Below, piece after piece: positions 6,636 to 41,954 of a DNA stretch of 64,000 bases. The position numbers and the translations under genes are program-made. The DNA is taken from contig RQOL01000466.1 of assembly GCA_013076295.1 (NCBI GenBank), forward strand, positions 6,181,080 to 6,245,079, read 5' to 3'. Numbering within the stretch: the stretch's first letter is position 1; each line of letters opens with the position of its first letter. This stretch comes from Sanderia malayensis (lineage: Eukaryota > Cnidaria > Scyphozoa > Semaeostomeae > Pelagiidae). Below the pieces are notes generated by a model. The model made no database searches. It was not told where the DNA came from and was given only the letters and a program-made list of their open reading frames with translations.

Positions 6636-6972
6636 TTGGGATACATGGTAGCTTTTAAAAGAGCTGTTTTTGATTCAGTTGACGTTGTTTTGACAGTTGT
6701 TGATGATGATGATGATGGTAATGATGATTATGATGACGATAATGATTATGATGACAACGATGGTGATGAAGGTGATGATCATGATAATGATGATTTTGTT
6801 GATGATAGTGATCATGATGATGATGATGGTGATAATGTTGGTGATAATGATGATTGTGATAATGTTGATGATGTTGATGATGATGATGATTATGATGGTG
6901 ATGGTGATTGTGATGTTGATGAAGATGATTGTGATAAAATTGATGATGATGGCGGTGATGATAGTGATAATG

Positions 6973-7014
<42 letters not shown>

Positions 7015-7445
7015 GTGATGATGGTGATGGTGGTGATGATGATTATGTTGATGACAATGATGGTGATAACGAAGTTAGCGAGAGAGGCCATGAGGAAGAA
7101 TGTGAAGACGCTGACCGAAATTACATAGCAGAAGATGACAGCGAAGATAATAGCGCAAACGAAAACCATGTTCCAGTAATTGTTATTTCAGATAGTGAAG
7201 ATGAAGAACACGACGAAGACAATGATGAAGAAGAAGATCATGATAATAATGACATCATTGAAATTGTAGATAGTGAAGAACAGGACATAGAGAATGAAGG
7301 TAGCAATGGTATTGATCATAATGAAGAGCATGAAAGAGAAAGTGAAGAAATGAGCCAGCAAGATGTTATATTTCGGGAATTTGACTTCAGCATGGTGACT
7401 TTTTTTGTACATTTAAGTGGATGTCCACACTCACATGAAGAATAA
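6636..7445 (+). CDS. Acidic protein with two SUMO-interaction-like motifs
   Basis: The frame of 269 codons begins with a short neutral segment, passes through a GAT/GAC microsatellite coding about 110 residues of almost pure Asp (roughly residues 22-145), and then enters a non-repetitive acidic tail. The tail contains VPVIVISDSEDEE and NDIIEIVDSEE. Each is a hydrophobic [VI]-x-[VI]-[VI]/[VI][VI]-x-[IV][VI] core followed by Asp/Ser/Glu, the classic form of a SUMO-interacting motif. Two AATAAA signals follow at 7536 and 7552, so this could be the terminal exon of a host gene. The start is uncertain and upstream exons were not found. It may instead be a chance frame through a microsatellite, but the tail is not microsatellite-like. 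Confidence 0.45.
6697..7070. repeat. GAT microsatellite
   Basis: Near-continuous GAT/GAC/GGT triplets, with an uninterrupted run of GAT around 6975-7010. It is open in several frames on both strands, and these shadow frames are not genes. Confidence 0.9.
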
Positions 7446-19801: not shown

Positions 19802-20299
19802 GTTTATGATGCTTTGATGTTTCGTATATTGGTTCTTGTTGCTGGTTGTGCAAACAAACCAGAAGTAATGTCCAAATACAAGGTGAGTAAATGACAGTTG
19901 TTTTATTTCATGAGTGGAAATTTAATAAGAACAATAGAAATCAATTGTTGTTATCATGGGCGGCCTAAATGTTCGACAAGAAAGTCAACAACTAATGTTC
20001 TAACATCAAAGAAAGTTACTGAAATGGTAAGAATTGCTCTTTCTAACTTAGTTATTAATGGGAATGGGTTGTTATTGGCCCTTCTACAATTATTTAGACC
20101 TATTCTTGGTGTGTTCTTGGAGTTTTCAACCTGTTCTTGGGTTGTTCTGGCATTTCGTTTTTTGGTAACGACATCCTATCATGAAAATGTAAGCTTTAGT
20201 TTATACTAATTCTCTATGGTTTAATTCGTATGAATCTGTAATATAACATTCACAGTTTCTTAAAATTATTATAAAATTTAAGTGTCATTCTGTGTTCAT

Positions 20300-22957: not shown

Positions 22958-23182
22958 GTGGCTGCAGACCATGGTCTTAAAATTTGGTCCGTTACATGTG
23001 ATGGAACATCAACAAACATCACCACATTGAAAAATCTTGGCCTCAAATTGACAGATAAATATGACACAATGGTTACAAAATTCAAGCATCCAACACGGGA
23101 TTATTCTGTTTATTGCACATAAGATGCATGCCATATGTTAAAGCTGGCAAGAAATGCATTGGCTGATTTAGGGACGTTTTAG
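22958..23182 (+). pseudogene. P-element/THAP9-like transposase fragment
   Basis: One frame gives AADHGLKIWSVTCDGTSTN, NLGLKLTDKYD and, after an in-frame TAA, DACHMLKLARNALADLG. The CDG-x-S/T-x-N segment followed by D-x-CHMLKLxRN is the pattern of the RNase-H-like core of P-element and THAP9 transposases, in which the first Asp is catalytic. Only about 75 codons survive, with the TAA just before DACHML and a TAG at the end. It lies 100 bp after the end of the transposase-like gene at 20300-22854, in the same orientation, but the family is different, so it is probably a separate insertion. Confidence 0.6.
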
Positions 23183-23382
23183 GCACCATATGGTCAGGTG
23201 ATTTCTTGGCATTAAATAAGAAAGCTGGCAGAGTTGCAAGACAAACAAGGATTTACATTGTCCAACAAATTAAATTCTGATCACATATATTGTCCAGCTT
23301 ATTCCCCAGTTTAATTACCCTACAATATGTAATGACATTGTATATCATTAAAAACGTTTAATTTCGTTTTTAGTCCAACGTT

Positions 23383-23800
23383 TACCGTACTCCCTTAACG
23401 CCCACTCTTTTTAACCCCCCCCCCCCCAACATGCGTTCACCTAAAATAGCATGAAATAAGCGCCCCCTCTCTTAACCGCCCAGGGCCGTTAATAGAAGTT
23501 TCAAATTTTCACTGTGGAGTTGAAACAATGGGCATGGAAGCGTGTTGTGGACCGATATTTTGTTTATGTGAATAATCAAGAAAGCAATTGAAGGTAAACA
23601 TTTGACATTTGACAAATCCAGATCCAGATTAAAAGGGGGAATTTGACAATGACTTAATGAGATTGTTGCCTTATTCCTGAATTAGTTTAATTCAAAGTTC
23701 AATACTTTGAAGCTTCTTCTCCCCCTTCTTTTAAGTCCCCCTCTAATAAGCCCCCAACAAGTTTTTCAAGCACCCGGACGCTTATCAGAGGTTGTTTATG
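23383..23800. mobile_element. Decayed MITE of the GCGCTTATT family
   Basis: Starts TTTACCGTACTCCCTTAACGCCC and ends near CACCCGGACGCTTATCAGAGG. It shares phrases with the better preserved copy at 3643-4055 and has a run of 14 C. Terminal repeats are eroded. It ends about 75 bp before the first kinase exon. Confidence 0.5.
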
Positions 23801-23876
23801 CAAGCCAATGCTGGTATGTAAATTATTTGGAGTAGAATTTAGTCTGCTTCAATAACCACTTGTATTGTTTTTTTAG

Positions 23877-26800
23877 CCGGAGAACATAGTACTTAAAAGT
23901 AAAGGATTCAGAGAAATTAAACTTGTCGATTTCGGACTTGTAAGAAAGTTGCAATCAGGTGTAGAAATGAGAGAAATAATGGGAACGCCAGAGTTCGCAG
24001 GTATTAAAACTCTTTTTATGCCATTAAAATGCTTTGTATAATGCAGTACCGCAACTTTATTGCCTTTTTGTCGACTTTAATTTCGGCATCTTAATTAGAC
24101 CAGCACGAAAGTCGTGATTGTAAACCACTTTCTCATTTTATTTGATGAACTTCTAGGAAGTTTTGTTTTGTTTTTGTCTTCGTCTAGCACCGGAAACCAT
24201 AAATTATGATCCAATAATAAATATAAACAAATTTCTAGCCTAAACTTGCTGCTGTTTGCAATTACACTGACTACACGAACGTTTTTTATAACAAAACAAA
24301 GGCAGACATGTTATAGATAAATATATGCGGATCCTATGACTTATATGAAAACCACGACAAAACATCTTTATGCGAACATGTAGATTACTTAAGGCCCTGT
24401 TACACAAGGCAATTTTATCAGCAACTTCTGTCGCAACACGTTGTGAGACAAGTTGCTGAGACGCCTCTTGCCCTCCCCCCCCCCCAGGGGCCATTTTTTC
24501 AACTTGATTCAATCAATACCCTGTGTTTGAGCACAGGGACACAAAGCTTCCACCCTCCAAGTAATGCATGGGCCTATAAATTCAAACCACTGCAAAAGGT
24601 ACGGTAAAATTTGTAAATAGCAATAATATTATAAAGCCAGGCATGAGCTTAACATGGTGTAAAGGTTAGAATGTTTCTTTGAGGTTTTTAACTGGAAGTA
24701 TCAATGTGCTTTCACTTCGAAATGTGAGACCTCTGGCTGTAGAGTATTGTCCACCATTTGTTGGAGGGTGAATGGCTTCAGATTTTTTGCTCCACCCTTC
24801 ATATAAAGCAGATATTGGCTCTAAGTCCTCTAGATTATCTTATATCCAATCTCTACTGTGAATATATGCTTGACTTGGTAACGCAGCTTTAATGTCTTCA
24901 CTCTTGCCCTCAGTATCTTTGCAAATGACATATCTTAATTTTGCTGTTTAGCTTTTAGGGCGTTGGAAGTTGTGACGTACATATTGTGAGTTTTTGCGTT
25001 TTTGTTTCAATTGATGCCCGTGAGCAATAATTATAGATGTCTTATTGGTATAGTATGTTTGTATAGTAGGTATAGTAGGTATAGTTATAGATTCGTCACT
25101 GGAAATATTTCCACTCAAACAAGCACTCTCTCTTCTTGTGTTTGACACTCGGAGTTAGAGCTGTATTTAATTTGCAGTTTTTCAATTGTTTTTTTATTTG
25201 CACTTTAGGCTTGTGGAGCGTCGCCGTTTCTTGGAGACAATGACTCAGAGACGTACCAAAATATAACAACTTGCGATTACGAATTTGATAATGAATTTTT
25301 CAGCAACATCACCAAAAATGCTCAAGATTTCATTAGAGCATTATTGCTTAAAAAAGGAAGGTAATACAATTGTTTTCTTTCAAGAAGGCACCGCTTTATT
25401 ATGCATAAGGCCTTGGTAGGCATTGAATATTTTACTACAGAGAGCATTAAAAGTTTGTTCAGCAATGTTTCCTGTAAAACGTGCCTTGCCTCAATAAGAC
25501 TGATAGGCGATCTAAGATACTTACAAATGTGGTTAAGAAGTTGATATGCAGCAGTAATTGATTATTCCAATATTGTTCAAAGGCTACAATGCTATTTGAA
25601 TGGTTTCTTTGCAAGAGTTTGTCTCACTACTCAAGTCTCTTATTTTCACTCATTGAACCAATGTTGCGAGTTTATGAAAGAGTGCCATTAAAGGCCTTCT
25701 GCAAAGAAAAATAATTGTTCCTTTTTCCACAAAAAATAGAATTTCAATCCTTGCTGATCATTTTGCTTTCATTTGTTCACGAAATGCATATTAAAATGAC
25801 GGTTTTAAATGACGGATTGACTACGACATAGTGTGTTGTTAAAACCATGATACACGAGGACGTTTGCAACTGGAGAGCATTGTGAAAAAATATCCAAAAC
25901 TACGCTGTACGTAACCCTGGCCTTATTTCTAAATCGTTTTCTAGGGTACACAACTATAAGACCTAAGTTAAATGTCGCTCTTCTCATTCGCCGAATCAAA
26001 TAGGTGAATTAAGTGCATGACAAGAGCGACGTTTAACTTGATTAAGTACGACAGATTTGATTTGGAGCGGCAGATTACATTTGGAGCGACACGTCCAACT
26101 TTGTTTACTGAACCTTTGAACAATAACAACAGCAACGGAAGTGTTCTATTGCTCCAGAGTCGCTCCACTGCCGCACTTAATTGTATTGGATTCGGTCTAA
26201 CTTTGGTCTAGGTCTAACTTTCTGCGCGTCGTGAAAAAAGGTACAGATCCTGATAGCACGAACCCTCGATAAATCGAGTCTCGGCGAACTCGAACCAATT
26301 AGCATTTCCCTTGAAGACTTCGTTAGCACTTTCTGACTCCGGTAGGTCGAACCATTTTCATCGGCCCCTTAGAAATTTGAGTTATCGGAATTTCACTGTC
26401 TTAATAACAGTGAAGTAATAATTGTATTGATTTTATATTGGCACCGAGAGTGGTCGCTACTCCACTTGAATCGTTCTCTGACTTTACAAACAAAATTTAA
26501 CTTTTATAAGGGCATAGTTGATTTGCGCGCTGCGAAGCAGCAATGCAAATATTAAAATGCATTCGCTCAACCGGATGTCATGTAAAGTACGTTTTCAACG
26601 TCACAAAAGAGAGCAGAAAGCCTGGCCAATCAGCATGCTGCATTTGACATCCATAACAATAAGCATCCTGATTTGGGTTGCCAGAAATATCTGCGCGAGT
26701 TTGACGAAACACCCGAGAAAATATATGCGCAAAAATTAGCATATGAATGCGTTCACAGTTCCATAGAAATGTAACAAAACGCAACAAAAGTGTCTGTCAT

Positions 26801-29319
26801 GGCGGCTAATATCCCGCCGAGCTGTGAGAAAGTGATGTTTTTATTTAAGGTTGCTGCCACAAATAGTTTCAAAAAACAGCTTCAAGCAAAAGTTTTTCAA
26901 AAGAGCAATAGTTTTTCTAAATTTCCATCAGTCTGAATTTTAAAATTCATCCTAATAACAAAGATATGAGAACAAAAACATGCCATATCTTCATGAATTT
27001 TCATGAATTTTCATGAATTTCGCCATATTTTAAATAAACAACAAGCTTTATTTACTCTTGCTAATGAATTGAGACAAAAATAAGGAAAAACAATGAAGAT
27101 ATGGCATGTTGGTGGCCCACATGAACAACCATCTGATTACTCTCATTCCGCTAGTCAATAATCTGCACTATCTAGCGCAAATCTTAAGATAGGGATATCT
27201 CTTGTTTAAAGTTATACGAAGGAGCTTGGTCGATCAGTGGTAAAAATAAAACGCAACTCTGCTAAACTAATTTAAAATATATTCCGTTGATCACATGCAA
27301 AAGGACAATGTGCGTACTCACTTTACAAATTGATCACGTGAACAGTTTCTGTTCACGTGCACAGTTCCTGATCACGTGCACAGTTTCTGATCACACGTCC
27401 AGTTTCTTGACCATCGTTTCATACATTTGATTGGATAGAATTAATCATCCATTTATTGGCTGAGCATATGTGCACGCTTTTATATTCCTCTTTCACCTTT
27501 AATGTTCATATGCTGGTATGCGATTTTTGATTTATGAGCTATTTATCAAGTTACGAGGAGTGGAATGAAAACCCATGACGTCACATATTGTCGCAGTTGA
27601 ATAAATGACAATTTGTCAAAGCTTGTTGCAAAGGCCATATTAATTCAACATTATTATTTTGTTCATAGTGAAAGAAATACGTTTGAAGATTGTTTGAAAC
27701 ACCCTTGGATTGCATGCGAGGTTAGTGTGATGACGTGTAATGAAGTCCTTGCATACATCTTGATACTCCGAACAAACTCTCTTTGTGACGTCATCGTTAT
27801 TTATAACTCTATAAGATTAATTGCATCACCATTTAGGTAGCATAGGGCAACAAGGGAGACTGTTATGTAACTGTATGTGTATGCATGAATCTGTTCATTT
27901 TATGTAATGTATCAAGCATAACTCTTCTTTTATCTGGAATTTATCTCTTGTAACTGTTGTGATGTATTTTTTGCTGAACAAAATGTCAAATAATTGTCGG
28001 AAAATTCAAAATTTTACTGTAGCCCACAAGCGTCACATCAAATGCAAATTCACCACGTCAAAATTGCGTGCGCACGAAATTGTTTCACGTGGCGTCTTAG
28101 CTAATTCTACATTTTCAATGCAATGCAACTCATTTACCTTAAATCCTCGAATAAGCCCCCGGGGGCTTATTTGCGAAAACGAAGTTTTAGCTGGATAATT
28201 GTTCAATATTAAGCAAAATAAAAGCTATACGATGCAGCCAATCAATAAAGTTATTGGTTTAAACTTTCTGCTATTTGCAATACATTCACTAAACAGCTTC
28301 AGTGTCTGGAAACTTGGCTGCAATATCCTTGCAAATGATTATCAGGATGGGGGCTTATTCGAGGGGAGGGCTTATTCGGAGGCGGGGGCTTTTTTGAGGA
28401 TTTACGGTACCTATACTGTTTGTGTTTGAAGTGCTGCTTGGGAAAAACAGACTGACAAGATTTCAAATTTGTAGATTTTATTTTGTCTATTTTTTTACCA
28501 CCAAGCAGATAACAACAATGTTAATATGGCCACTTTTTGGGGGTGGCCGTATTAACAGGTTTTCACTCCCCTGTAATGTAGTTTGCTTTTTGCAGGTTCT
28601 ATCTTATTCACACGTATCAGGCTGGTGGCCTTGTTCGCCTAAATTATGTTCATTATTTGCAATGTTTTTCATAAACGCTGGAATACAGTTTAATCTTGAT
28701 TGTTTAGGATGCTCACATCAACTATCCGGTATCTCCTTGCCAATTTATTGGAGTTGAAGAGCTGGATAGTTCAGTGTCAATTCAAGATGTACCTAGTTTG
28801 GATTCTTCACTCTGTGAAAACCATTCCAAGCAACTCTTAGCTTCTACTGGAGCCATTGATGTTGAGGAGAGCAAAGAAGATAGTTTTGAAGCGACTGTCT
28901 CATTTGAAGATTACGAAATTATCGACCATGCAGATGATAGTGACTACAGCAACAAAACAGAAGTTAGCAGATTGACAATTGCAAAAGAGAATAGAATTGT
29001 GGATGAAAATATGAACCAGGGCAAAGAAGAAATTGAAAACAATGTTGAGAAGGCAAATTCTAAGGAGTCAAAATCCATAGAGACAATTTCAAATCTGAGA
29101 AGATTAAGCAATGCCACCTCCAAAGTAACAACTGTAATATCTTCAGGGAAGATAACTGAAAGCAATGAGGAAGACGGGAAAACATATCTCAGTGTTTCAA
29201 ATTTTGAAAAAATGAAAAGGCAAAGTATGGCAGGAATAAATTGGGAAGATAACATAATGCCAGATTACCTCGATGAAACGCACGACAGGTCGCTAAAAGG
29301 AGCTGCTGCTATTTTATAA
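23877..29319 (+). CDS. STK17: STK17/DRAK-like serine/threonine kinase, C-terminal five exons
   Basis: Exons: 23877-24000, 24188 to about 24216, 25209-25360, 27669-27720 and 28708-29319, with matching splice phases. They encode PENIVLKSKGF, KLVDFGLVRK (the DFG metal-binding motif), REIMGTPEFAAPE (activation segment and APE), NYDPI, ASPFLGDNDSETYQNI, AQDFIRALLLKKG and DCLKHPWIACE. The REIMGTPE and NYDPI strings match the DRAK/STK17 subgroup of death-associated protein kinases, pro-apoptotic nuclear or membrane-associated kinases. The last exon is a 203-codon Ser/Glu-rich tail without a known domain, and an AATAAA lies at 29612. The segment with the subdomain IX aspartate (DMW..G) is not found between NYDPI and ASPF. 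The N-terminal exons, with the glycine loop and catalytic lysine, are not in the window. Confidence 0.75.
24217..25208. other. Kinase intron or lesion, with a possible minus-strand exon remnant
   Basis: The kinase reading frame continues only into stops after NYDPI and no GT donor follows at the expected place. The missing exon was sought and not found here. On the minus strand about 24680-24935 one frame reads KDTEGKSEDIKAALPSQAY, one TAA, then EPISALYEGWSKKSEAIHPP and STARGLTFRSEST. This is protein-like and unrelated to kinases, and may be the relic of a mobile element that replaced the exon. A poly-C run sits at 24474-24485. Confidence 0.4.
25690..27610. repeat. Old, rearranged copy of the TTAA long element plus other repeats
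   Basis: 25693-25960 resembles the left half of 15854-17359 (TAAAGGCCTTCTGCAAAG, AATTTCAATCcTTgCTGAT, ACGGTTTTAAATGACG). 27515-27605 resembles its right internal part (GCGATTTTTgATTtAt, TGTCGCAGTTGAA). Between them lie CGATAAATCGAG-type sequence at about 26265, like the ends of pogo/Tigger elements, and the CACGTG array at 27335-27397. No coding sequence is seen. Confidence 0.45.
27335..27397. repeat. 19-bp tandem array of CACGTG boxes
   Basis: CACGTG occurs at 27335, 27354 and 27373 with an exact 19-bp spacing. A degenerate CACACG occurs at 27392. The spacer is close to CACAGTTTCTGAT. CACGTG is the palindromic E-box bound by bHLH-zip factors (USF, Max, MITF) and clock-type bHLH-PAS dimers. 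The array lies in a kinase intron, about 270 bp before the 27669 exon. Regulatory activity is inference. Confidence 0.6.
28140..28404. mobile_element. TA-flanked MITE with AAGCCCCC ends
   Basis: The left end TAAATCCTCGAATAAGCCCC and the right end GGGGGCTTTTTTGAGGATTTA are inverted. TA sits at each edge. Non-coding. A decayed relative is at 4931-5375. It lies in the last intron of the kinase. Confidence 0.7.
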
Positions 29320-32300
29320 ACAACTCACAAAGAAACATTGATTTAACGAAGTCTTGAAGTTTTGAGGATTTCTTTGTCTCTAATCGAATGTGAGCAAGTT
29401 TTGTATACATCAAATCTTGCGATTCAAATCGGTGTCCACAATCGATAAATCATTGTGATTGTAAAGAATTATAGCCCTTGCTATTTCAAAAGTAGCCATA
29501 AAATAAGTGTTTGTTGTATTCAATGTATCTATCTTTGAAAGCTGACATGGGATATCTACACAACTAGGAATTACTTGTTTAAACAAAAGAGAAGATCACA
29601 GCTTAAGGTTTAATAAAAACGTTTCAGTTTATGAAATTCAAAAATGGATATTTGTGGCTCCTTCACTTGGGACAGGGGGGCAGATGTAATCCTTCCACTT
29701 TTCGGGATAAAAGATTGCCTCTTTCAGGATTAGCTAAATATTTTTCACTGCCTATTTTATTGTGAAATTTAGAATGAGTAGTCTTAAAAGACGAACAGGT
29801 TTCATCAACCTTTTCAAGATGATAAAATACCAGTATTTGACATTATTAAGAGATGTTTTTCGAAAATGCCAGCAGGCCATAACAAAATGTATTGAACAGG
29901 AAAAATATTGATGCAGTGCAAAGTGAAATTATTCAAACGCTCATCAAATTTCTGAACGATGGACTTCTTGATTAAGGTTGTCTGGAGTGAAGAACTGCGA
30001 CCACTGATTAGCTGGTTCCCAGTACTCTAAGTGACCAAATAAGAGCTTGCAACAATGTTATTTGGCCTACCCCATCCCGATGTTTATTTTATAAATGAAT
30101 ATCGGGATGTGGTAGATACGGTAGGCCTAAAGAAATCGCCACACCCAATCCTTGTTTTGGTTTTAGGCTTCTGTATCGTGCTTGTATCGTGGCTGCCAAG
30201 CCAAATTCTGCTGACGTGGAACGATTTATCAGCACGTACACGTATCCAAAAACATGGGCGACTTTGGAATCATTTAATTCATAACAGGTTCCTCTTGATT
30301 GGTTAATCAGTAAAAATCGGCTTGCAAGATTTCCAGAGAAAGCGAGGCAGCAAGGCTGGTTCGGTTGTATTTTTAGCAAAGCAGGGGACTAAACTAATGA
30401 ATAGACAAAAGAAAAATGCTGAAACAAGTCAAAAACCAAACCGTTTTAAATTTTGACTTGTTCAGTAACAATTGCTGCAAGAACGTGTTGCTAAAACATG
30501 CATAAGACTTTTTTACAGTTCATTAAAAGTGTTCACTTTTAAGGAAGTAAATAAAAGTAAATCATAGGCATCAGGTGGTATGCAATGACAATCAAAATAA
30601 CGTTTCTGGAGATCATGATCTTATAAATTTTAATCAAGTACATAGACACTAACATGTCACGCGCACGCGCTTTTTATTGTGCCCCTTCCCGTACTCTTCT
30701 GCATCTCTGGCTCCATTCATTTAATTTGCTTTTTTCTATTTCACTAAAACATTTTTCAATTTATTTCATATGACACGCAAGACCTCATTGTATATTAAGC
30801 AATTCGTGTAACACGCATTATAGCTACATATATTGCTTCTTTGTTTATCTAGAACAATCTGATGTTGTATCTGAATTTTAATTCTCAAATTTAATTTTGT
30901 AATTCATTCAACCAACACAAAATGGCTCTCGAGGTTGAGTAGTTTTGTAACCGAAGATGACCATAATTGGTAAAATGGTTTCAAACAAATTAATGCTTGG
31001 ATGATGCTGCACTTGAATAAAAAAGCAAAAGTGTGGCTGATTTGATGAGTGCAGCTTGCTGACTGAAAAGCAACGAATTTTGCTCACAGACGTTTTTCGT
31101 GCGGGTAAGTTTCTATGATTTTTGTAATTTTTGCTTATAAATATTTTGTGTTAACAATTTTAGCTACCAGGAAGAACAACTCCACGGAGTTATTAACAAG
31201 GTGGAAAACCTTTTAAGGTTTTTAGTTCATTGACAATATTTGGGGCCTTAACAAGAACCCGGCAGAACATTTAATTCGCCAAATCTTTTCGAGGCTGACT
31301 GGAAAACCTAGTAGTTTAAAAAAATATTTTTAAGTGTTAATGGATACAACGTTTGCTTATTTTTTGTAACATTTGCTGCTCATCTGCCATTTAATGCACA
31401 TTTCTCCAGGTTTCAAATATAGTGAAAGTTTTCTTTCCAATACATTCAAAAGTGTTTTTTCTGAGTTGCCAAGGTTATGCGTTATTATTTGAAAGAGATA
31501 TAGCTACATTTCAGGAGACTTTTTCTCCTATTTACTTGAAAATTCAAGCATTGTGTTAACATACTTGGATAACAGATACGTTTTTTAGTCCATCTCGGGT
31601 CGTTGATATAGGTTGTTTTGTTTCAGATGTTATACCTGTGCCATTCATTGTATTCGTATGTAAATGATTTTTTCGCTTTTTCAATGCTTCTAAATTCGAA
31701 ATACAAAACCGAGAGACTTAGCTACAATGTCTCTCAAGCTTTTTTGATCCGCTAAACCTAAATATTCAAGCTGCCATGGTTTCTTGCCCTTCAGCAATAG
31801 TAATTGTAATATATGGCTTAAGCAAGGGTGCAGAGCTACCGCTTATGACAGTATCAGCAGAAATGTCATCGGCGAACCCTGCCTTGGGTTTAGAGATTTA
31901 TTTCAGAATAATCGTGTTTGTTTATCTTAAACATTTACTTCACTGTTCTTGGTATTTTTTGCCTTAAATTCTTTCGCGAATCAGACATTTCAAACCTGCG
32001 CAAGCAAGAGTAATTTAACATGCTAAAGAAAAATGGACGCCACGTAAAAACAATTTAAAATTCCTCATGGCGTTGGCGTAAAGTCGACGTCCGCTTTGTG
32101 ATGTTCAATTTTATTTTGGAGATATAATTTTGAGATGCAGTTCTCATTTAAATGTCTATCGGAGCGTAAAAAAGGTGATTTAGCATTTTATAGAAAACCT
32201 AATCGAACTGATCATATAAAACCGTTTTCAGAATGAAAATTGCTTCAGTATGGCTATGTTACATGCCCACAAAGTCAACAATTTTGGAATTTCAATTGCG

Positions 32301-33094
32301 ACAACCCGTCATGTTATAACCATGACATATTCCACTAGGATTTTGTGTTGGGACGTAAATCAAAAGTCGTATGTTGTTTGCAAATTTTGAGATTTTCGTA
32401 CATTTAGAAACGGGTTTGGGAAAGTAATTGCGGTAGGAAATAGAGCAGTTTTTATGACGTCAAACTGCGGCAGAAAGCTATAGCACAGAATAGAAACTCG
32501 GGCCGAAGGAAGTTACCTTTCGGCGTTTTTTATGCTTAATGGTCGCAAGATTCTTGGCGCGTAGATATGAAGAGCAGTGAAAACATGCATGAGTTAAATT
32601 TGAGAAAAAGAAGAATATAAAAGAAATAAATATTTAGTTTTATATCTCGGCTTAGTCGGTGACAAACTTCACTGTAAAACATCACAAGAAGGAAAACGAT
32701 GTGTGCTGTGGAGCCATGTAATGCTGTAATACTGACCTTGCTAACGAATAATGAGAATAATTTATTCCTTTACGATTGAGCATTTGATAAATGATTTTGT
32801 CCGGAATTCCATTCAATAGTGTGAATAGTTGACTCACATTGTAACATGTTTAACTTGCCAAACTGTTGTTCCTGTTAGATGGGGAGTTGTAGTTGTAATA
32901 TTGAAAAGAAAGATTATTTACTGCTCCAAGAGTGTGTGTGTGTTTCTTACATCTCGAACCAGCCGGCAAAGGGGGACTCTGCATTACACGATGAGTCATG
33001 ATTTTTCGTTGCAACATGATTTTGAACACAGAACTTCGTCATGGAAACGTCATGAGAACCTACGGCACTACATTACATGGGCTGTTGTTAGAAT
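29320..33094. other. Kinase 3' UTR followed by non-coding sequence
   Basis: The first 300 bases are the probable 3' UTR, with AATAAA at 29612. An imperfect palindrome lies at 30064-30125, pairing CATCCCGATgtTTAT with ATATCGGGATG. About 32190-32320 is an inverted, diverged piece of the TTAA element. Nothing else is recognised. The promoter of the peptide gene at 34181 may lie in the last kilobase, but I see no decisive core element. Confidence 0.4.
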
Positions 33095-34112
33095 CAGTGG
33101 CGTTAATGCAGGGGGGCATGGCGGGCGACCGTCCCCCCACCAGAGCTTCCGAGCCATTTTGTCGGAAAATTTAAGATTTTATCGGAAAGTTTTCGATAAT
33201 GATCTTAAAGGACAGTTTGAAAACATTTTCAAATTGCTAGAAATAGCCTTGACTCTTCCAGTATCGTCAGCTCACAACGAACGAGCTTTCAGTTGCTTAA
33301 AGAGAGTCAAGACGTATCTTCGAAGTACACTTTTTTTAATAAGCAACTAGACTTTGGTCCAGCCTTGAAAGTTGCTTAAAATTTTGGATATTTCAGCCCT
33401 CAAAGTTGCTGAAAAGTGGCTTAAAATTTTTGGTACCTATAACAGCCTCTCCTGTCCCCAGGGTACCACTCCTAAGTTTGTGGGTCAAAATCATCAACTG
33501 TAACGCCTACAACACAAGACTTAAAAGACAGAAGTGTGAAAATGTTAGTCAGGAACTTCAACAGCACAGTGAACATTCGTGCATTCAGTTTTAGCATTTT
33601 AAAATAAATGACGTTTCAATTCTTAGTTGCTAACAGTAATTCAATTGAGCCCTCGGGTTGCTTAATGTTAGGGTCAATCCAGTTCTAGTTGCTTATTGAG
33701 CGATTGCTTATTAAAAAAAAGTGTAGAATGAATAAAGAGCGTCTTTCAAACTTGGCGTGGATCTCCATCAATCGCGAAACAGCGGTAAACTTGCCATTAA
33801 GAAAGATGCAAGAATCCTTTCTTGAAGCAAAAACAAGAAAAGTTTTCAATTAAACTATTCATCAATTCGTTTTCGATGTTCTATTTTGGTTTTTGTTCTG
33901 TTGTAACCTTGTGGAAATGATAATCACCAAAACATTTCATTTCCCGATTTGTGTTTTTCTCAACTAACTGTCATCTTTCATGTTTAAACTCTGTGTATAT
34001 TCAGAAACATCTTATCGAACATTTTCCTATTTTCAAAAGACACACCTTTTTGTCGGAAAATTTTGGTCTTTGCCTCTCGCTAAATATTTCTTTCTACGCC
34101 ACTGGTTGGAAT
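33087..34112 (+). mobile_element. Internally deleted hAT element
   Basis: The element at 33095-34104 has inverted ends CAGTGGCGTtAA and TTCTACGCCACTG, with a GTTAGAAT / GTTGGAAT 8-bp target duplication differing by one base (33087-33094 and 34105-34112). CAGTGGCGTA-type ends are characteristic of hAT transposons. It retains the hAT C-terminal dimerisation coding region at 33200-33340 and lost the rest. Its right end lies 52 bp before the splice acceptor of the peptide-precursor exon. Confidence 0.8.
33200..33345 (+). pseudogene. hAT transposase C-terminal dimerisation remnant
   Basis: The frame reads FENIFKLLEIALTLPVSSA, then HNERAFSCLKRVKTYLRST. This is the hAT family C-terminal dimerisation motif (LLxxxLTLPVSSAxxERxFSxLKRIKTyLRst). 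Catalytic parts are absent. It lies in the middle of the element at 33095-34104. Confidence 0.8.
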
Positions 34113-34180
34113 ACACAGCGCACAAAAGAATTCTTTAGTCAATTTTTATTTATTTTCTTTTCAGCCTTACTCACGTCAAA

Positions 34181-34711
34181 ATGAATCCCATCACTTTGGC
34201 ATTTCTCATCATATGCTTTTGTGCAGTTGGATTTATCCAAGGTAAAGCAAATTACATGATTGCCTTTACACTCAAGTAATCTTACAGTGAATTATTTTTT
34301 CATTGTTTTCTTTTAATTTGTGTATTTAACCTTGCAGCTAAAAGTTTAAAGAAAAAAGATGCTGGGGTAAAGGATCCTCGATACTACGGAAAGGATCCTC
34401 GATACTACGGAAAGGATCCTCGATACTACGGAAAAGATCCTCGATACTACGGAAAGGATCCTCGATACTACGGAAAGGATCCTCGATACTACGGAAAGGA
34501 TCCTCGATACTACGGAAAAGATCCTCGATACTACGGAAAGGATCCTCGATACTACGGAAAAGATCCTCGATACTACGGAAAGGATCCTCGATACTACGGA
34601 AAGGATCCTCGATACTACGGAAAAGATCCTCGATACTACGGAAAAGATCCTCGATACTACGGAAAGGATCCTCGATACTACGGAAAGGATCCTCGATACT
34701 ACGGGAGATAG
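34181..34711 (+). CDS. Secreted precursor with 16 KDPRYYG repeats: candidate DPRYY-amide neuropeptide precursor
   Basis: Two exons: 34181-34241 and 34338-34711. The donor is G|GTAAAG, the acceptor CTTGCAG|CT, and the junction codon is Ala. Translation gives 144 residues: a hydrophobic signal peptide (about residues 1-21, core ITLAFLIICFCAVG), a short spacer KSLKKKDAGV, then 16 perfect KDPRYYG units without spacers, and a final Arg before TAG. In each unit Gly-Lys (Gly-Arg in the last) is the usual C-terminal amidation and cleavage site. Convertase, carboxypeptidase and amidating monooxygenase would release 16 DPRYY-NH2. The Asp-Pro start would resist aminopeptidases, as in many cnidarian neuropeptides. 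A splice acceptor (TTCTTTTCAG, ending 34164) 16 bp before the ATG implies an upstream 5' UTR exon or spliced leader. The main alternative is a Tyr/Lys-rich structural or adhesive protein. I do not recognise this precursor. Confidence 0.85.
34370..34705 (+). repeat. 16 x 21-bp coding minisatellite
   Basis: Sixteen units of AAR GAT CCT CGA TAC TAC GGR. The only differences are the third base of Lys (AAA in units 4, 8, 10, 13 and 14, AAG elsewhere) and GGG in the last Gly. Every peptide copy is therefore identical. The near-absence of silent change indicates recent expansion or gene conversion. Five of sixteen units differ from the rest by one base, and three of those (8, 10, 13) alternate with AAG units. 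Confidence 0.95.
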
Positions 34712-35074
34712 GATGCTATGCTTGATACTATTACAGGGATAAGGAAGCTTGGATGTTCTACGGATAAGAATTTACTGATTACCTTTGATATATTGCAAGA
34801 CTTTTCATCTTTTTAATTTCCAATTGCTTTTTTTGCATAACATTTCTTCAAGCTGTACCATTATCATAATTTGATTACATTTATGAGAGCATTGAACCTT
34901 GTGTTGTTTGAATTGTGTTTGTAGTCCTAATTCAGCTTGTTACAGTATCGCCTATGTTCTAGCTGGAGTCAATTTGTTGAGCACTTCAACACGGCAACTC
35001 TGGCATTGTGTTTGCTTGTTTCAAGCGTCCTCTTATATACATGAAGTCTCAACTTTTAATCTGAAAATATCGCT
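34712..35074. other. 3' region of the peptide-precursor gene
   Basis: AT-rich with no canonical AATAAA; variants such as ATAATT and CATAAC occur. The 3' UTR end is therefore not determined. The 150-bp dispersed repeat begins at about 35075. Confidence 0.4.
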
Positions 35075-35228
35075 GATTGGAACTGGCATTTATATCACAT
35101 ATATCTATATGCAGTTTTAGGTGGATCCTCTCGCTATCTCCAAATAACATCTTTTGCTTTCAGAAATAAGTTGGATTAGACATATTTCTTCAAAATAGAA
35201 AGAAGAGATTTCACGTTTAAAAGTGGCT
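35075..35228. repeat. Dispersed repeat, uninterrupted copy
   Basis: An intact version of the repeat split at 14333-14436, 15807-15853 and 17360-17371. It contains TGGATTAGACATATTTCTTC and TTCACGTTTAAAAGTGGCT, exactly the two positions where the other copy received insertions. It therefore documents both empty target sites. Confidence 0.8.
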
Positions 35229-36939
35229 ATTTAAGTTACAATTCACGTTTGAGAAAGAAGCGTTGTTGTTACAACTGACACAGCACCCTGATTCACTTCA
35301 ATAGCAGCCTCCACAAGACGGCCTGAAAGCAAAGGACATCATCTCCTGAGGCTTCTACGCACATTTTAGGCCGAGAGTAATTATTTAGTGGTGAATATCT
35401 TTATTTCATTTCAGCTTAATGCTTATTTTACAGACTGGCTGTGTGAATTTGTGAAAGGTAGACATTTTCGGGCAAGGAATTTTGTTCCACGTTTTAAATA
35501 GGCGTGCAAGCTGGGCAAGTTTAATAAAAGGACGCGGACTTTTTGCTCCACTCTTGTCCATTTGTCTTGTCCAAAGGTGGGAGGGTTATCAACACTCGAC
35601 TCATCTAGACTCACTACATTGCGTCCCTGTGCGTCGCTCGCTTTCACTCGATCGTTTGAGGGACTTATGGACTTTCAGGTCAAAAACTGTCCAAAAATCT
35701 CCTCTCCCGACAAATTTTTGTCGGCTCAATCAGATTGCAGCATTTGGCTTTTAAACAATGGCTATTGTTCTTTTTGACCAATCACGTTCAACCACAACTT
35801 AGGCCATGTAAAATGAGGTTTAACTCGATATTTAACGGACCAATTTGGACTATAAGAAGTGGCGTGGCGTCAATTTTTAATTCAACAACAAAATGGCGGG
35901 AAAATGCCGAAGCTGTGAGAAAAGTTAAAATGGATATAAACTCAATAAATTTTCGTGCTTTTCCGAGAAATATTGACAAAAGGGTCCTCGCCAATTCTTT
36001 GTTTTTGTATATGGGTCTTGCAAAAGTTAAGGTAAAAGCTTTGTTTCAACGGTTTTGTTTTACCAATTAAAACATTCCCATATCTGCGCAATTGCGCATC
36101 TTTCAGTAATGACGTAATGCAAGTTTTGAAATTAGCCAATCAAAACTGCCAACCAAGATTAATCTTAGTTCACAAGTGAGGTTTCCCTTCCCGAACGATC
36201 ACGGAAGTTCCATTTCATTTCCGTGATCGTGCTCAAATTTGTCTTGTCTGTAGATGAAGAAACAAAGCAAACACCATTCCGTGTTATCTGTTTCGTAGAA
36301 TCAAATAGCGATACTCTCTGCTCTGAAAAGTTGTTGATTCTCAAAAGAAAACAAAATTTGATACTCCTCAATGAATTACTTTCATTAGCCTTTTTATACA
36401 CTTCATATAATGTACATTGATCTTGTTCTGTTCAGGAAATGATATGTTTGGAATTGTTTTGTTCCAAGATTGTTGTGTTTCATTTGGTTCAGCTGAATTC
36501 CAGCTTTGTTTTTACCGTGTAGTCTGGTTTGTGCACAGAATCTGTTTTAAGATAATGTGTAATATATTTGTTCTGCACTAATAATTCCAGTTATATTTAA
36601 ACTTCTGTTAGAGTGCTCCTTGATGTTCAGATTTGTTCGTAACTTAGGCCTGGCCTGCTTGCGCTCGGTGATGCGACCCTAGCTTGAGGGCTTAGCTAAA
36701 GTTTGTGGCCCAGGTCCAAGCATCTGTCCAGGCGTACTTTTGGCAAAGGTACTCACTGCTCCGGAGATATTCTTAACATTCCAAGAATTGAAAAAATAAT
36801 TTTCCAGTTGAAAATTTCAGCGCAAAGATGCCACCAAAAAGTTTGGCTCCATAGCTTAGCTTCAAGGATTTCCTCCATTGCGGTGAAATCTGAATGATTT
36901 TCAGAAAGCGTTAGTGTGGTTGCGCAGATATGGGAATTT
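35229..36939. other. Mostly non-coding; possible first exon near 35930
   Basis: At 35930-36031 an ATG opens MDINSINFRAFPRNIDKRV and runs to a donor-like AAG|GTAAAA, after a TATAAG at 35850. This could be a first coding exon but has no recognised homology and no partner exon. An inverted GATCACGGAA/TTCCGTGATC stem lies at 36197-36231. The rest shows nothing. Confidence 0.3.
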
Positions 36940-37546: not shown

Positions 37547-37824
37547 TACTCTGTCATCAGCTACGTCACTTATGGATCACGTGAGAAGCGAGCGCGCAGG
37601 CGTAGCAAACCATTGCGAGTTTGGCGTTAAACTATCCACACGAAAAGAAACTTTCTCTGCGATTTTCAGTTCTAATTAAAAGAAATTCCTTTCAAGTAGA
37701 AGAACACAGTGGTAAGATTTTTAGTTTTCCATGAGATCTGTGTGTTTCCTTTGTATCAAGCCAATCAAGTAAGTCAATTTATAATTCTCTATCTTTATTT
37801 GGGTTTGTGTAATTTTGCAAGATC

Positions 37825-39006
37825 ATGGATTGTTCAAAGGAATATATCGAGTCGGATGGAAATGAGGACACCGAACCGGCTGTTGACCTTCAGAAAACCC
37901 TTTTGACTATTAATGAAAATATTGCGTCCATGAAATCGTTTTTTGAAACATTTAAGGGTCCAACTATGCCTTCTCAGCCCTCAGGGCACTCTTCGTCCAC
38001 AGGACAAAATCAGTTAGACATATCTACTGTTGGCTTGCCCACTGGGCATGTGAATCCCACTGGGAATGCTCAACCCACAGGGTCAGAAAATTTAGGCAAA
38101 AAACGCAAAGGCCCTGCTATTTCTACTCATACTATTTCAAAAGCACCGTGTTCCAACATTGATGATGACTGTGTTAGCGTTCATGCGGACGCGGAGGACG
38201 ATTTCTCCAATCATGAGTATGAACCGGATGAACTTCTCCAACAACTCAGCAATGAGCTTGAATCAACAGAAAAAACAGGCAATGCTGTCAACCAGCAATT
38301 GGCTGACATTGTCAGCAAACGATGGGGCAAGCAACTTCCACAGGAAAAAATCAAAGCTCTTTGTGATAAATATATGCGCCCAAATAATTGCAAAGAAATG
38401 CACCCGCAAATTAAAGTTAACAAGGAAGTTTGGGGGTTTTTACTTGCTGACAAAAAGTCTACAGACGCAAGGCTTTCTAATGTCCAGCAAACTATTCAGC
38501 GTGTGGGCTGTATTGCGGTTAATGCAGCAAATTACTTTCTGCAATCTGACCATAATGACACTCCGGTAAGCCCATCAGATATTTTAACTAGCCTTGTTGA
38601 TGGTATAGCATTACTTGGTCACGCAACCGCTGATCTCTCGACATTGCGTCGTAACTCATTGAGGACAGCCGTAAAACCGGAGTATAAAACGCTAACATCG
38701 CGTGACATTGCACACAGTGCACTTCTTTTTGGGTCAGATTTCACTAAAGAGCTTAAGGAAGCAGAAGAAACATCTAAAGTTTCAAAGGCTTTTCATAGCT
38801 TGCGACCAAATGACAACCGCAACAGAACAAGGTCAAATTTTGCTGCTCCTTACCAATCTCAAAATGGAAGTAGGAATTCTTTTTTATTCCGCAGCCGGCA
38901 CCGCCCCCCATTTCGCTTCAAAAGAGGGTTTTACCAGAGACCGCCTCAGAGTCAACAACAGACTGCTCCACCAAATCAACGGAATCCCAACACAAAGAAA
39001 TTTTAA
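37825..39006 (+). CDS. DIRS gag-like ORF1
   Basis: 393 codons. The N-terminal half is Thr/Gly/Pro-rich and low-complexity. The middle (about residues 120-310) is helical and charged, with LADIVSKRWGKQL and LCDKYMRPNNCKEM, and the C-terminus is Arg/Gln/Pro-rich (FRSRHRPPFRFKRGF). This is the composition of the nucleic-acid-binding ORF1 of animal DIRS elements. No zinc knuckle is visible. It has an ATG start. The end overlaps the upstream extension of the RT frame, so translation of RT probably depends on a frame change or separate start. Confidence 0.7.
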   Translation: MDCSKEYIESDGNEDTEPAVDLQKTLLTINENIASMKSFFETFKGPTMPSQPSGHSSSTGQNQLDISTVGLPTGHVNPTGNAQPTGSENLGKKRKGPAISTHTISKAPCSNIDDDCVSVHADAEDDFSNHEYEPDELLQQLSNELESTEKTGNAVNQQLADIVSKRWGKQLPQEKIKALCDKYMRPNNCKEMHPQIKVNKEVWGFLLADKKSTDARLSNVQQTIQRVGCIAVNAANYFLQSDHNDTPVSPSDILTSLVDGIALLGHATADLSTLRRNSLRTAVKPEYKTLTSRDIAHSALLFGSDFTKELKEAEETSKVSKAFHSLRPNDNRNRTRSNFAAPYQSQNGSRNSFLFRSRHRPPFRFKRGFYQRPPQSQQQTAPPNQRNPNTKKF

Positions 39007-39009
39007 AAG

Positions 39010-40985
39010 AATTAAATGCCCTACAAGACTCACAAAATGTAAGTAAATTTGTTGACCGCTTACCCTACCTAATTTCACTTTTGTCTGCTCAATGTGAGTC
39101 CTTTCAAGCTGGTCGAATAGCAAATTTTATTTCTCAATGGCGCCAAATTACTTCCGACCCTCAAATTCTATCTTGCGTGACAGGGGCGGAGATTGAACAA
39201 GAATCCGCTTCTATTTATAACCCGAAAGCTTGTAGGCAGACTTCTTTCAATACAAATGAATTGATGCTTGTTGAAAACGAAGTAACAACACTACTTCATA
39301 AAAATGTTCTTGAAGTTACAAAGCCTGAACAAGGGCAAGTGATTTCGCCGATCTTTCTTACGCCAAAACCTGATGGCAGTTACCGTATGATATTGAATTT
39401 AAAGCAATTTAATAAACAGGTTGTATACCGACATTTCAAAATGGACACACTGAATACAATAATTAATTTAATGTCGAAGAATTGCTTTATGGCCTCACTA
39501 GACCTGAAAGACGCATATTATAGTGTGCCTATATCAAAAAAGCATAGAAAATTCTTGCGTTTCCAGCTCAATGGGAAACTCCTACAATATACTGCATTTC
39601 CAAATAGTCTGGCATGCTGTCCAAGGCTTTTCACAAAAATTTTAAAAGCCCCTTTGACTTCCTTACATAAGGCAGGCCATTTGACATTGGCATATATTGA
39701 TGATCTCTATTTACAGGCCAATTCATATGATGATTGCCTTGAAAACGTTGTCACAACATTTCAGTTGTTTACTAAACTGGGTTTTATTATTCACCCTCAA
39801 AAATCATCATTCTTGCCCTCCAAGAAAATACAAATGCTAGGTTTTATTTTAAACTCTGAAGACATGACGGTAAAACCAACCAATGATAAAATCCAATCGA
39901 TCATAGAACTCTGCGAGAGAATTTTTCATGAGCAACATATTCCAATCCGACAAGTAGCGAAAATGCTAGGAAAAATGATCTCATGTTTTCCTGGTACTTT
40001 GTATGGGCCATTGTATTATAGAAACATTGAAAATGATAAAATCGCTGCACTCAAAGTTAATCGTGGCGATTTCGATACTTATATGAGCCTCTCAAATGCA
40101 GCAAAATGTGAAATAAAATGGTGGATTGACAATGCTCCCCTCTTTTCTAAACGTATTGCGCGAGAAAAGCCAAGTCTTCTTATAACAACTGATGCATCGT
40201 TAAAAGGCTGGGGGGCTGTATCAAATGGCAATAAAACTGGTGGTCTTTGGACCACTGCAGAAAAATCCCACCATATTAATTATCTTGAAATGTTGGCTAT
40301 TTTATTGGGCCTGCAAATATTTGCCAAAAATTGCAAAAATTTACACATAAGAATTATGACCGACAATACTACAGCGGTTTCAGTCCTTAATCATATGGGT
40401 ACTAACCATTCCGTAGTGTGTAATACTCTATGCAAAACAATTTGGGAATGGTGTATTGAACGGAATTTATGGATTTCGGTTGCTCATATTTCAGGAAAAC
40501 AAAATATAGATGCAGATACTCAATCAAGGCGTATTCACAATACCAGTGCAGAATGGATGCTTAATTCTGAAATCCTCCATTCTAGTTTGAAGCATTTTAG
40601 TTTTATGCCAGATGTTGATTTATTTGCATCCAGATTAAACCATCAATTCCAAAAATATGTTTCCTATAAACCGGAACCAACTTCCTTTGCTGTTGATGCA
40701 TTTTCATTAGATTGGTCAAGGTACAAGAACTATATCTTTCCACCTTTCAGTATCATACCAAAGGTACTACGAAAATTACTGGAAGACAATGCTCAGGCCA
40801 TCTGTGTGCTTCCTGATTGGCCCACCCAGGCGTGGTACACCAAGGCAATGACAATGATGGTAGATTCGCCGCTGATTTTGAAACCCAGCCAAACGCTCCT
40901 GACTCTGCCCACAAACAAATGTGCAGTACATCCTCTCAGCCAAAAACTAAACCTAATGGTCTGTCATATATCCGCGAAACTGTAA
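39010..40985 (+). CDS. DIRS reverse transcriptase and RNase H
   Basis: The frame is open from before 39010 (ELNALQDSQNVSKFVDRL) to 40985. RT motifs: KPDGSYRMILNLKQFN, MASLDLKDAYYSVPI, PNSLACCPRLFTK and the catalytic YIDD at about 39700. RNase H follows: TTDASLKGWGA (about 40186), YLEMLAILLGL, MTDNTTAVSVLN (about 40358) and the HISGKQNIDADTQSR end. Then comes the DIRS-typical tail DLFASRLNHQFQKYVSY, DAFSLDW and PPFSIIPKVLRK, with VLPDWPTQAWY. All active-site acids appear present and no stop interrupts it. The last 170 bases overlap the recombinase frame. Confidence 0.88.
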
Positions 40986-41954
40986 GTTCTTTTGACCTCT
41001 CCGAACCTACGAAAGATATCTTCTTAGCTTCATGGAGACCCGGTACTCAAGAACAATATGACTGCTATTTACACAAATGGCCCACTTTTTGTAATGATCA
41101 TCTTATTGAGGTATATCACCCTACACTTGAGCAAGTGTTGGAGTTTCTGACTAGCCTTTTCAAATCAGGACTTGGCTATAGTGCAATCAATACCGCCAGG
41201 TCTGCACTTATTACACTTATCTGCATCTATTATTACATTCAATAATAATATGCCCCTTGGTGAACATCCCATGGTAAAGCGATTCTTGAAAGGCATTTTT
41301 CAATTGAGGCCTGCATTACCTAAATACTCCTATATTTGGGATGTCAATACTTTGCTAAATCATTGAAAACAAATGTCGCCAATTGCTAAACTTTCTTTGA
41401 AAGAGTTAACCTTAAAAACTGTCACATTACTATGTATTCTAACCGGCCAACGTTGTCAAACTATTCATAAAATTGACATACGACATTTGCAAATTCTCCC
41501 TGATATGATTAAAATTACTATCACCCAAATATTTAAAACAACTAAGCCGGGTAGCCATTTGAAACCTTTGGAGCTCATGGCATATATTGCTGATAAGGAG
41601 TTGTGCATTGTATCTTACTTAAGTGAATATCTCAGCAGAACATCTACTCTAAGGTCCAACACTAACCAACTTTTTATAAGTTTTCAGAAACCATATAACC
41701 CTGTTACCAAGGACACAGTCAGTCGATGGGTGAAGAAAATGTTAAAGGAGTCTGGTATTGATACGAATAAATTCACTGCGCATAGTTGCCGATCTGCTTC
41801 TGCTTCTGCTAACAAATCGGCTGGTCTGAACTTAATTGAAATCATGAAAGCTGCGAGGGGGTCTAACTGTAATACTTTTGCAAAGTTTTATGATAAGTGT
41901 ATCCTTAAGGACAATTATGGGCACAAAGTTTTGGAACAATTTTCTCATAATTGA
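40817..41954 (+). pseudogene. DIRS tyrosine recombinase, frameshifted
   Basis: The recombinase joins the circular DNA copy to the target in place of an integrase. The N-terminal core-binding part is in one frame (PGTQEQYDCYLHKWPTF, SAINTARSALIT, to 41245). The rest is in the next frame (MPLGEHPMVKRFLKGIF, then an in-frame TGA at 41364 just after DVNTLLNH, then LLCILTGQRCQTIH, TAHSCRSASASA and FAKFYDK). The catalytic set R (GQR), H-x-x-R (HSCR) and Y (KFYDK) is visible. One base is lost or gained near 41220-41243 and a TGA replaces a codon that is usually aromatic. The fold-determining residues are otherwise intact, suggesting recent inactivation. Confidence 0.85.

Follow-up and report, generated by a model that had tools for sequence, protein, structure and literature searches.

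One survey of three scyphozoan species listed six preprohormone genes (PMC6909153), and the peptides described in that paper provide most of the comparisons for the gene reported here. The precursor of pQWLRGRFamide, a peptide assigned there to Cubozoa and Scyphozoa and likewise present in the hydrozoan C. sowerbii according to a passage in PMC8638164, contains many copies of the peptide, each followed by Gly, by one or two basic residues and then by an acidic residue. The X1PRX2amides (LPRSamide, RPRAamide and GPRGamide; PMC6909153) are short peptides with Pro near the N-terminus and a Pro-Arg pair, and many of their precursors typically use KR sites. The scyphozoan LRYamides and VRYamides (pQHLRYamide and PHVRYamide; PMC6909153) end in Tyr-amide, may start with Pro and are followed by GR or GK, whereas the octocoral GPRRamide precursors (PMC6909153) exclusively use single basic sites and hold up to 22 copies of short peptides with Pro at position 2. 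Outside the phylum, a passage in PMC6737977, citing Varoqueaux et al. 2018, mentions a Trichoplax "YYamide", which by its name ends in Tyr-Tyr-amide and which we liken to the present peptide by name alone; string searches of four further papers did not yield its sequence. The string YY-NH2 occurs in the abstract of a Schistosoma neuropeptide paper (PMC9495596) and YYamide or YY-NH2 also matched a Delia peptidomics paper (PMC3405134), and it may well be that further amidated peptides end in Tyr-Tyr.

Here we describe a gene of the jellyfish Sanderia malayensis that shares features with several of these precursors. It lies in a stretch of 64,000 nucleotides of genomic DNA, the whole of which is referred to below as the window, and it consists of two coding exons at window positions 34181-34711 that encode a predicted signal peptide followed, after a short spacer, by sixteen DPRYYG units. 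We consider it likely that the product is a secreted precursor from which a short signalling peptide with an amidated C-terminus is cut. The best reading, predicted from gene anatomy, is that this gene and a sister gene on a different contig represent a new family of amidated (neuro)peptides of the usual cnidarian kind.

The gene is on the forward strand. Exon 1 (34181..34241, 61 bases) encodes the predicted signal peptide MNPITLAFLIICFCAVGFIQ(A), which was judged by eye and by hydropathy and has a short n-region, a hydrophobic core (Kyte-Doolittle mean up to 3.18 over 11 residues) and A at position -1. The intron (34242..34337, 96 bases, GT...CAG) is in phase 1 and splits an Ala codon close to the likely signal cleavage site. 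Exon 2 (coding sequence 34338..34711, including the stop codon TAG) contains the spacer KSLKKKDAGVK (34340..34372) and the array of 16 DPRYYG units, 15 of them closed by Lys and one by Arg (34373..34708), so that the complete protein of 144 amino acids reads MNPITLAFLIICFCAVGFIQA-KSLKKKDAGVK-(DPRYYGK)x15-DPRYYGR. An earlier note on this DNA had described the same two-exon arrangement, and our reading of the sequence confirms it. A strong splice acceptor, TATTTTCTTTTCAG, with a polypyrimidine tract and CAG, ends at position 34164 (AG at 34163-34164), 16 bases 5' of the ATG; it is present in both gene copies, the tract of the sister gene differing at one base, which points to a likely further non-coding 5' exon, or to trans-splicing, for the transcript. 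The bases at 34165..34180 (forward strand) would then be a piece of the 5' UTR, and the first downstream AATAAA (35523..35528, forward strand) is a possible polyadenylation signal.

The array consists of 16 x 21 bases with zero spacer between the units (Tandem Repeats Finder: period 21, 16.0 copies, 97% matches, score 637) and is not of chance origin. The units vary in nothing but synonymous Lys codons (AAG or AAA) and the GGG AGA of the final unit. Because tandem duplication yields such arrays easily, a repeat by itself says little about function, and five of the six frames of the 21-base unit lack stop codons. The reading frame is supported by 1) the splicing of the array onto an exon that resembles a signal peptide and 2) the presence of a second locus with a diverged array.

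This second locus was the one relative found when the whole assembly (184,004,477 bases in 918 contigs) was searched with protein and DNA queries, the match counts of which are lower bounds. It lies at C616:6235575-6236389. Its signal exon is identical to that of the window gene at 61 of 61 bases, its intron boundaries match, and the ungapped identity between the two genes amounts to 95.9% in the 5' flank, 95.8% in the intron and 96.3% in the 3' flank. The array of the sister gene holds 28 units of three types, namely DAGYYG (14), DPGYYG (10) and DPYYYG (4), followed by K (11), RK (8), KK (4), RR (4) or R (1). At the level of sequence, this diverged array is the decisive new evidence that the array is more than a repeat.

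Every one of the 44 units in the two genes keeps five positions: D1, Y4, Y5, G6 and a basic residue at position 7. Across these units the codons for Y4 and G6 show synonymous changes only, with G6 encoded in all four ways (GGA 26, GGC 13, GGT 3 and GGG 2), and position 7 is Lys or Arg. The units are seven or eight codons long, so that gaining or losing a second basic codon leaves the frame unchanged. When the 15 distinct 21-mers are compared, the coding frame has a pN/pS of 0.29, against 2.00 and 1.37 for the two remaining forward frames, values that are descriptive as the units are not independent; one of these two alternative frames contains stop codons over the distinct 21-mers. Cnidarian precursors are recognised by at least three similar peptides each followed by GR or GK (PMC6909153), and this applies to 16/16 units of the window gene and 28/28 of the sister. 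An acidic N-terminal residue or an X-Pro start is likewise present, with Asp at the start of every unit and Pro at position 2 in 30 of the 44. The earlier note had proposed a secreted multi-copy precursor of an amidated peptide, and had named homologues without the Gly or the basic residue as evidence that would count against it; in the one homologue in which this could be tested, Gly and a basic residue are retained in all 28 units. The proposal gains further support from the processing machinery and from a second peptide precursor in the same genome.

Enzymes of the kind required by cnidarian precursors are represented by a PAM gene and by 11 matches to the convertase-type P_proprotein domain, which is unspecific to prohormone convertases and also matched one archaeal control. 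Within C616:1747000-1756900 there are PHM-type exon pieces that match PHM and PAM structures (E 1.3e-14) and PAL-type exon pieces that match PAM structure 3fvz (E 5.9e-52), and these pieces, on one strand and within 9.9 kb, look like parts of one PAM gene. Searches with PF01082 and PF03712 had first given the impression of DBH-like enzymes alone, which was overturned when a weak PF03712 match led to the PAM gene. Distinct from PAM, a 630-codon open frame on another contig (L035, C675) resembles DBH/MOXD copper monooxygenases, and a third contig carries related exons clustered in tandem (L036-L038, C655).

As a positive control, the precursor of pQWLRGRFamide is present in the same genome at C859:3539642-3540172. 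In 12 of its 16 QWLRGRFG units just one basic residue (9 Arg and 3 Lys) comes after the Gly, and in 16/16 the next residue is acidic, which matches the G-K-D order of the window gene. Gly-Lys-Asp is thus a grammar that the animal already uses. Against the reading, a lone Lys ahead of Asp falls short of an ideal convertase site by bilaterian standards. A further precursor, at C726:4149950-4150700 (L086), contains 20 QPPGVW/QPPGIW units (QPPGVWGKR, QPPGIW(K/R)); Gly stands before the basic residues in three of them, and thus the other 17 would yield non-amidated peptides. It resembles the pQPPGVW-type peptides, amidated and non-amidated, that are described for scyphozoans (PMC6909153). Overall, the genome looks like that of a scyphozoan and not of an anthozoan, placozoan or ctenophore.

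We propose that the precursor enters the secretory pathway, where signal peptidase would remove the signal peptide, a convertase would cut after each Lys or other basic residue of the array, a carboxypeptidase would take off the Lys and PAM would convert the Gly into an amide. The N-terminus would either stay X-Pro, giving DPRYY-NH2, or drop the Asp, giving PRYY-NH2. Sixteen peptide copies per precursor would be released from neurons or peptidergic gland cells and would act on a putative receptor, either a GPCR or a peptide-gated DEG/ENaC channel; a passage in PMC11087051 gives GPCRs, and DEG/ENaC channels in Hydra, as known cnidarian peptide receptors. The predicted products of the sister gene are amides of the DAGYY, DPGYY and DPYYY types. 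Regarding the exact product, the earlier note had named DPRYY-NH2 with [M+H]+ of about 712.34. The mass is right (712.341), but the N-terminus may be otherwise: passages in PMC6909153 state that N-terminal acidic residues are frequently trimmed in cnidarian precursors, and that trimming favours E, D, S, T, N, G, A, L, V, Y and F and halts at Gln (which becomes pyroglutamate), Pro or X-Pro. Consequently, PRYY-NH2 (597.314) is as plausible as DPRYY-NH2 as the mature predicted product. For the products of the sister gene, the calculated [M+H]+ values form the corresponding pairs 613.262/498.235, 587.246/472.219 and 719.304/604.277. The DAGYY peptides of the sister gene lack X-Pro protection and have no obvious N-terminal trimming stop.

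The likenesses to the GRFamide, X1PRX2amide and LRYamide/VRYamide families do not extend to membership. The peptide of the pQWLRGRFamide precursor is unrelated, and its units are protected by pyroglutamate and parted by varied acidic spacers, whereas the window array has 16 identical units and no spacer, save perhaps the Asp. Neither gene encodes a C-terminal GRF-amide, and the GRFamide gene of this genome is a separate one. X1PRX2amides end in PR(S/A/G)-amide and the window peptide ends in PRYY-amide, the KR sites typical of many of their precursors are absent here, the PRX-amide terminus (X = S, A or G) that defines them is lacking, and in the sister gene Pro-Arg occurs in 0/28 units and Arg is absent from the peptide part of 28/28. 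The LRYamides and VRYamides end in -RY-amide but the window and sister peptides in -YY-amide; there is no common core, the sister peptides are without Arg, and a C-terminal (L/V)RY-amide is encoded by neither gene. The octocoral GPRRamide is a different peptide, often preceded by DEIT and described as octocoral-specific (PMC6909153). Judged by their predicted peptides, the two genes are not PRXamide, GRFamide or LRYamide precursors.

Protein-database searches, which covered collections of predicted open reading frames, yielded no homologue in another species. This absence is weak because such collections would miss a spliced gene whose exon 2 has no start codon: the frame of exon 2 runs from stop to stop with neither ATG, GTG nor TTG available upstream, and the window gene's own protein is likewise not listed. 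The whole genomes searchable for relatives included no other jellyfish. The database matches comprised five distinct proteins with E from 4.4e-3 to 2.7, two of the searches having scored the best 8000 word-sharing candidates. Three of these proteins (P0002, P0003 and P0004) look unrelated on reading. P0003, of 249 amino acids from a 3200-base contig, is superficially similar to the sister in having repeated KKDGYYG units, with no signal peptide by eye, and another weak match (P0006) is a hypothetical protein of a moth. Within the assembly, the first DNA pattern gave 45 matches, of which 16 were the window array; the one read among the 29 outside it (L001) is repetitive AT-rich DNA with the motif present once and no such gene. 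The protein search found at least 76 places, six of them within the two genes. Among the other 70, 11 loci and two regions (L031 and L032) were read and all proved to be other low-complexity repeats, the remainder being judged by score; L032, by its motif, looks like the heptad tail of RNA polymerase II. Eleven places matched an Antho-RFamide array query; the sister precursor on C616 accounts for the four best, and of the other seven the one that was read (L084) is of low complexity. No match to the GFP family came up, nor did any control give one.

The strings DPRYYG, DPRYYamide, PRYYamide, RYYGKDPR, PRYYGK, DAGYYG and DPGYYG were all absent from the literature searched (main texts), in agreement with the view that the motif DPRYYG is undescribed. 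The shorter string DPRYY occurs in papers unrelated by title, and among the literature matches to PRYYa, PGYYa, AGYYa, PYYYa, YYGRR and YYGKR there was no neuropeptide paper by title. The genome searches also returned at least 89 homeodomain matches, three of which are linked on C569 (3.89-3.92 Mb) and which we take, from their motifs, to resemble a ParaHox cluster. For Sanderia malayensis, a passage in PMC7305137 counts 101 homeobox genes and describes a ParaHox cluster of three genes. COX1 was not found in the assembly, which probably has no mitochondrial contig.

The main rival to a signalling-peptide precursor is a secreted Tyr-rich structural or adhesive protein, in which the repeat would stay whole or be partly cut and the Tyr might be converted to DOPA, as in tubeworm cement and mussel foot proteins. 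After the signal peptide the window protein has 26% Tyr, pI 9.76 and short regular repeats, and that of the sister has 27.5% Tyr and pI 9.42, so that both are basic, repetitive, Tyr-rich and secreted in the manner of adhesives; composition does not discriminate between the two readings. Passages in PMC4275877 describe Phragmatopoma Pc-1 and Pc-2 as secreted, basic, highly repetitive proteins that bear DOPA-modified Tyr, and the string YYGKR occurs once in a Perna viridis byssus paper (PMC6508894). In contrast, in 44/44 units a Gly immediately precedes the one or two basic residues and mono- and dibasic sites interchange, a pattern expected for a cleavage and amidation site and unneeded in an adhesive, and the matching grammar of the pQWLRGRFamide precursor in the same genome also argues against an adhesive. 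Units closed by Gly and a basic residue, with a switch between mono- and dibasic sites, are not known from the repeats of Pc-1 and Pc-2. An adhesive protein would also be unusual in having an Asp in each unit and in being so small, with 123 amino acids after the signal peptide. Altogether we regard a structural protein as unlikely, and an amidated signalling peptide remains the preferred reading.

The window gene is part of a segment of ~12.6 kb (22959..35603) that is duplicated on contig C616 (about 6222213-6237277) in colinear pieces that are 89-97% identical. The colinear homology ends at both junctions (checked over 2.2 kb on the left and 3.7 kb on the right), though dispersed repeats match elsewhere in the window. 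The ending of homology at both junctions disfavours an allelic copy rather than a paralogue, and it is improbable that the C616 copy is an allele of different structure on a scaffold that was left unpurged.

Mobile elements occur in and around this segment. A remnant of a hAT element lies just upstream of the gene (33204-33853) and contains a dimerisation domain at 33204-33329 on the forward strand (Dimer_Tnp_hAT, PF05699, E 1.8e-6). It is split by an extra stretch of ~395 bases (about 33328-33722); the corresponding position of the C616 copy is without it, but a similar copy of the stretch (88.7%) is found elsewhere within the C616 segment. A probable DIRS-type retroelement at 37813-41954 (forward strand) has, in order, an open reading frame without Pfam match, a reverse transcriptase frame (PF00078), in which an RNase H match (PF17917) falls below its cut-off, and a tyrosine-recombinase frame (PF00589). 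A LINE-like reverse transcriptase frame of 664 codons, open throughout, is found at 17930-19921 on the reverse strand (PF00078, E 1.2e-37), and a long TGATGA simple repeat of about 61 hexamers, with several frames open, at 6701-7067.

In such a transposon-rich segment the window copy might be a duplicate that is decaying or not expressed, a relic left over from the C616 gene and homogenised. The position inside a duplication, with a broken hAT element just upstream, is consistent with a relic, as is the near-perfect array, which slippage or gene conversion could achieve at the DNA level without function. Against this, the open reading frame, the splice sites and the signal exon are intact, the latter identical at every base where flanks and intron are about 96% identical, and the in-frame changes among the units are synonymous, the Arg of the last unit excepted. 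With divergence at about 4%, a stretch of 61 unchanged bases would arise by chance with a probability of about 0.08 (hand calculation) and is not significant alone. A relic therefore appears quite improbable to us. As for a multi-copy precursor of defence or gland peptides (antimicrobial or host-microbe) released onto a surface rather than used as signals, its architecture would be the same and short precursors with fast-turnover arrays would fit it, but we know of no antimicrobial logic for a peptide of four to five residues with two Tyr and no Cys, and we consider it very improbable.

The two arrays suggest how the window gene acquired its peptide. In the last two units of both genes the sole difference is CGA in the window gene and GGA in the sister, and both genes terminate in GGG AGA TAG. 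The earlier note had taken the Arg of the last unit for a selected change from Lys; the shared ending argues otherwise, and the Arg is probably inherited. The DAGVK of the window spacer aligns with the first residues of the DAGYYGK units in the sister gene and resembles a remnant of such a unit, as judged from the sister gene (KSLKKKDAGYYGKK...). The simplest history is that the ancestral array was mixed and that in the window gene one G-to-C change led to Arg in a unit that then overran the array. The reverse direction, from a pure to a mixed array, is less economical because of the DAG remnant in the window spacer. A more specific and tentative proposal, to which we give slightly less than an even chance, is that peptide replacement is underway: after a recent duplication (flanks ~96% identical) the change from GGA to CGA would have turned DPGYYG into DPRYYG in one unit, and turnover would have spread it to 16/16 units while removing the mixed DAG, DPG and DPY units and the dibasic sites, so that one genome would now encode a pure new ligand in addition to the older mixed one.

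The window gene is solid as gene anatomy and the peptide family is predicted from it. The result extends the six preprohormone genes listed in the survey of three scyphozoan species by one probable family of signalling peptides, with exact masses to seek. The pair of loci, near-identical outside the array and different inside it, provides a case for how new peptide ligands arise; the route to examine is homogenisation of units after a single base change, and whether receptors follow.
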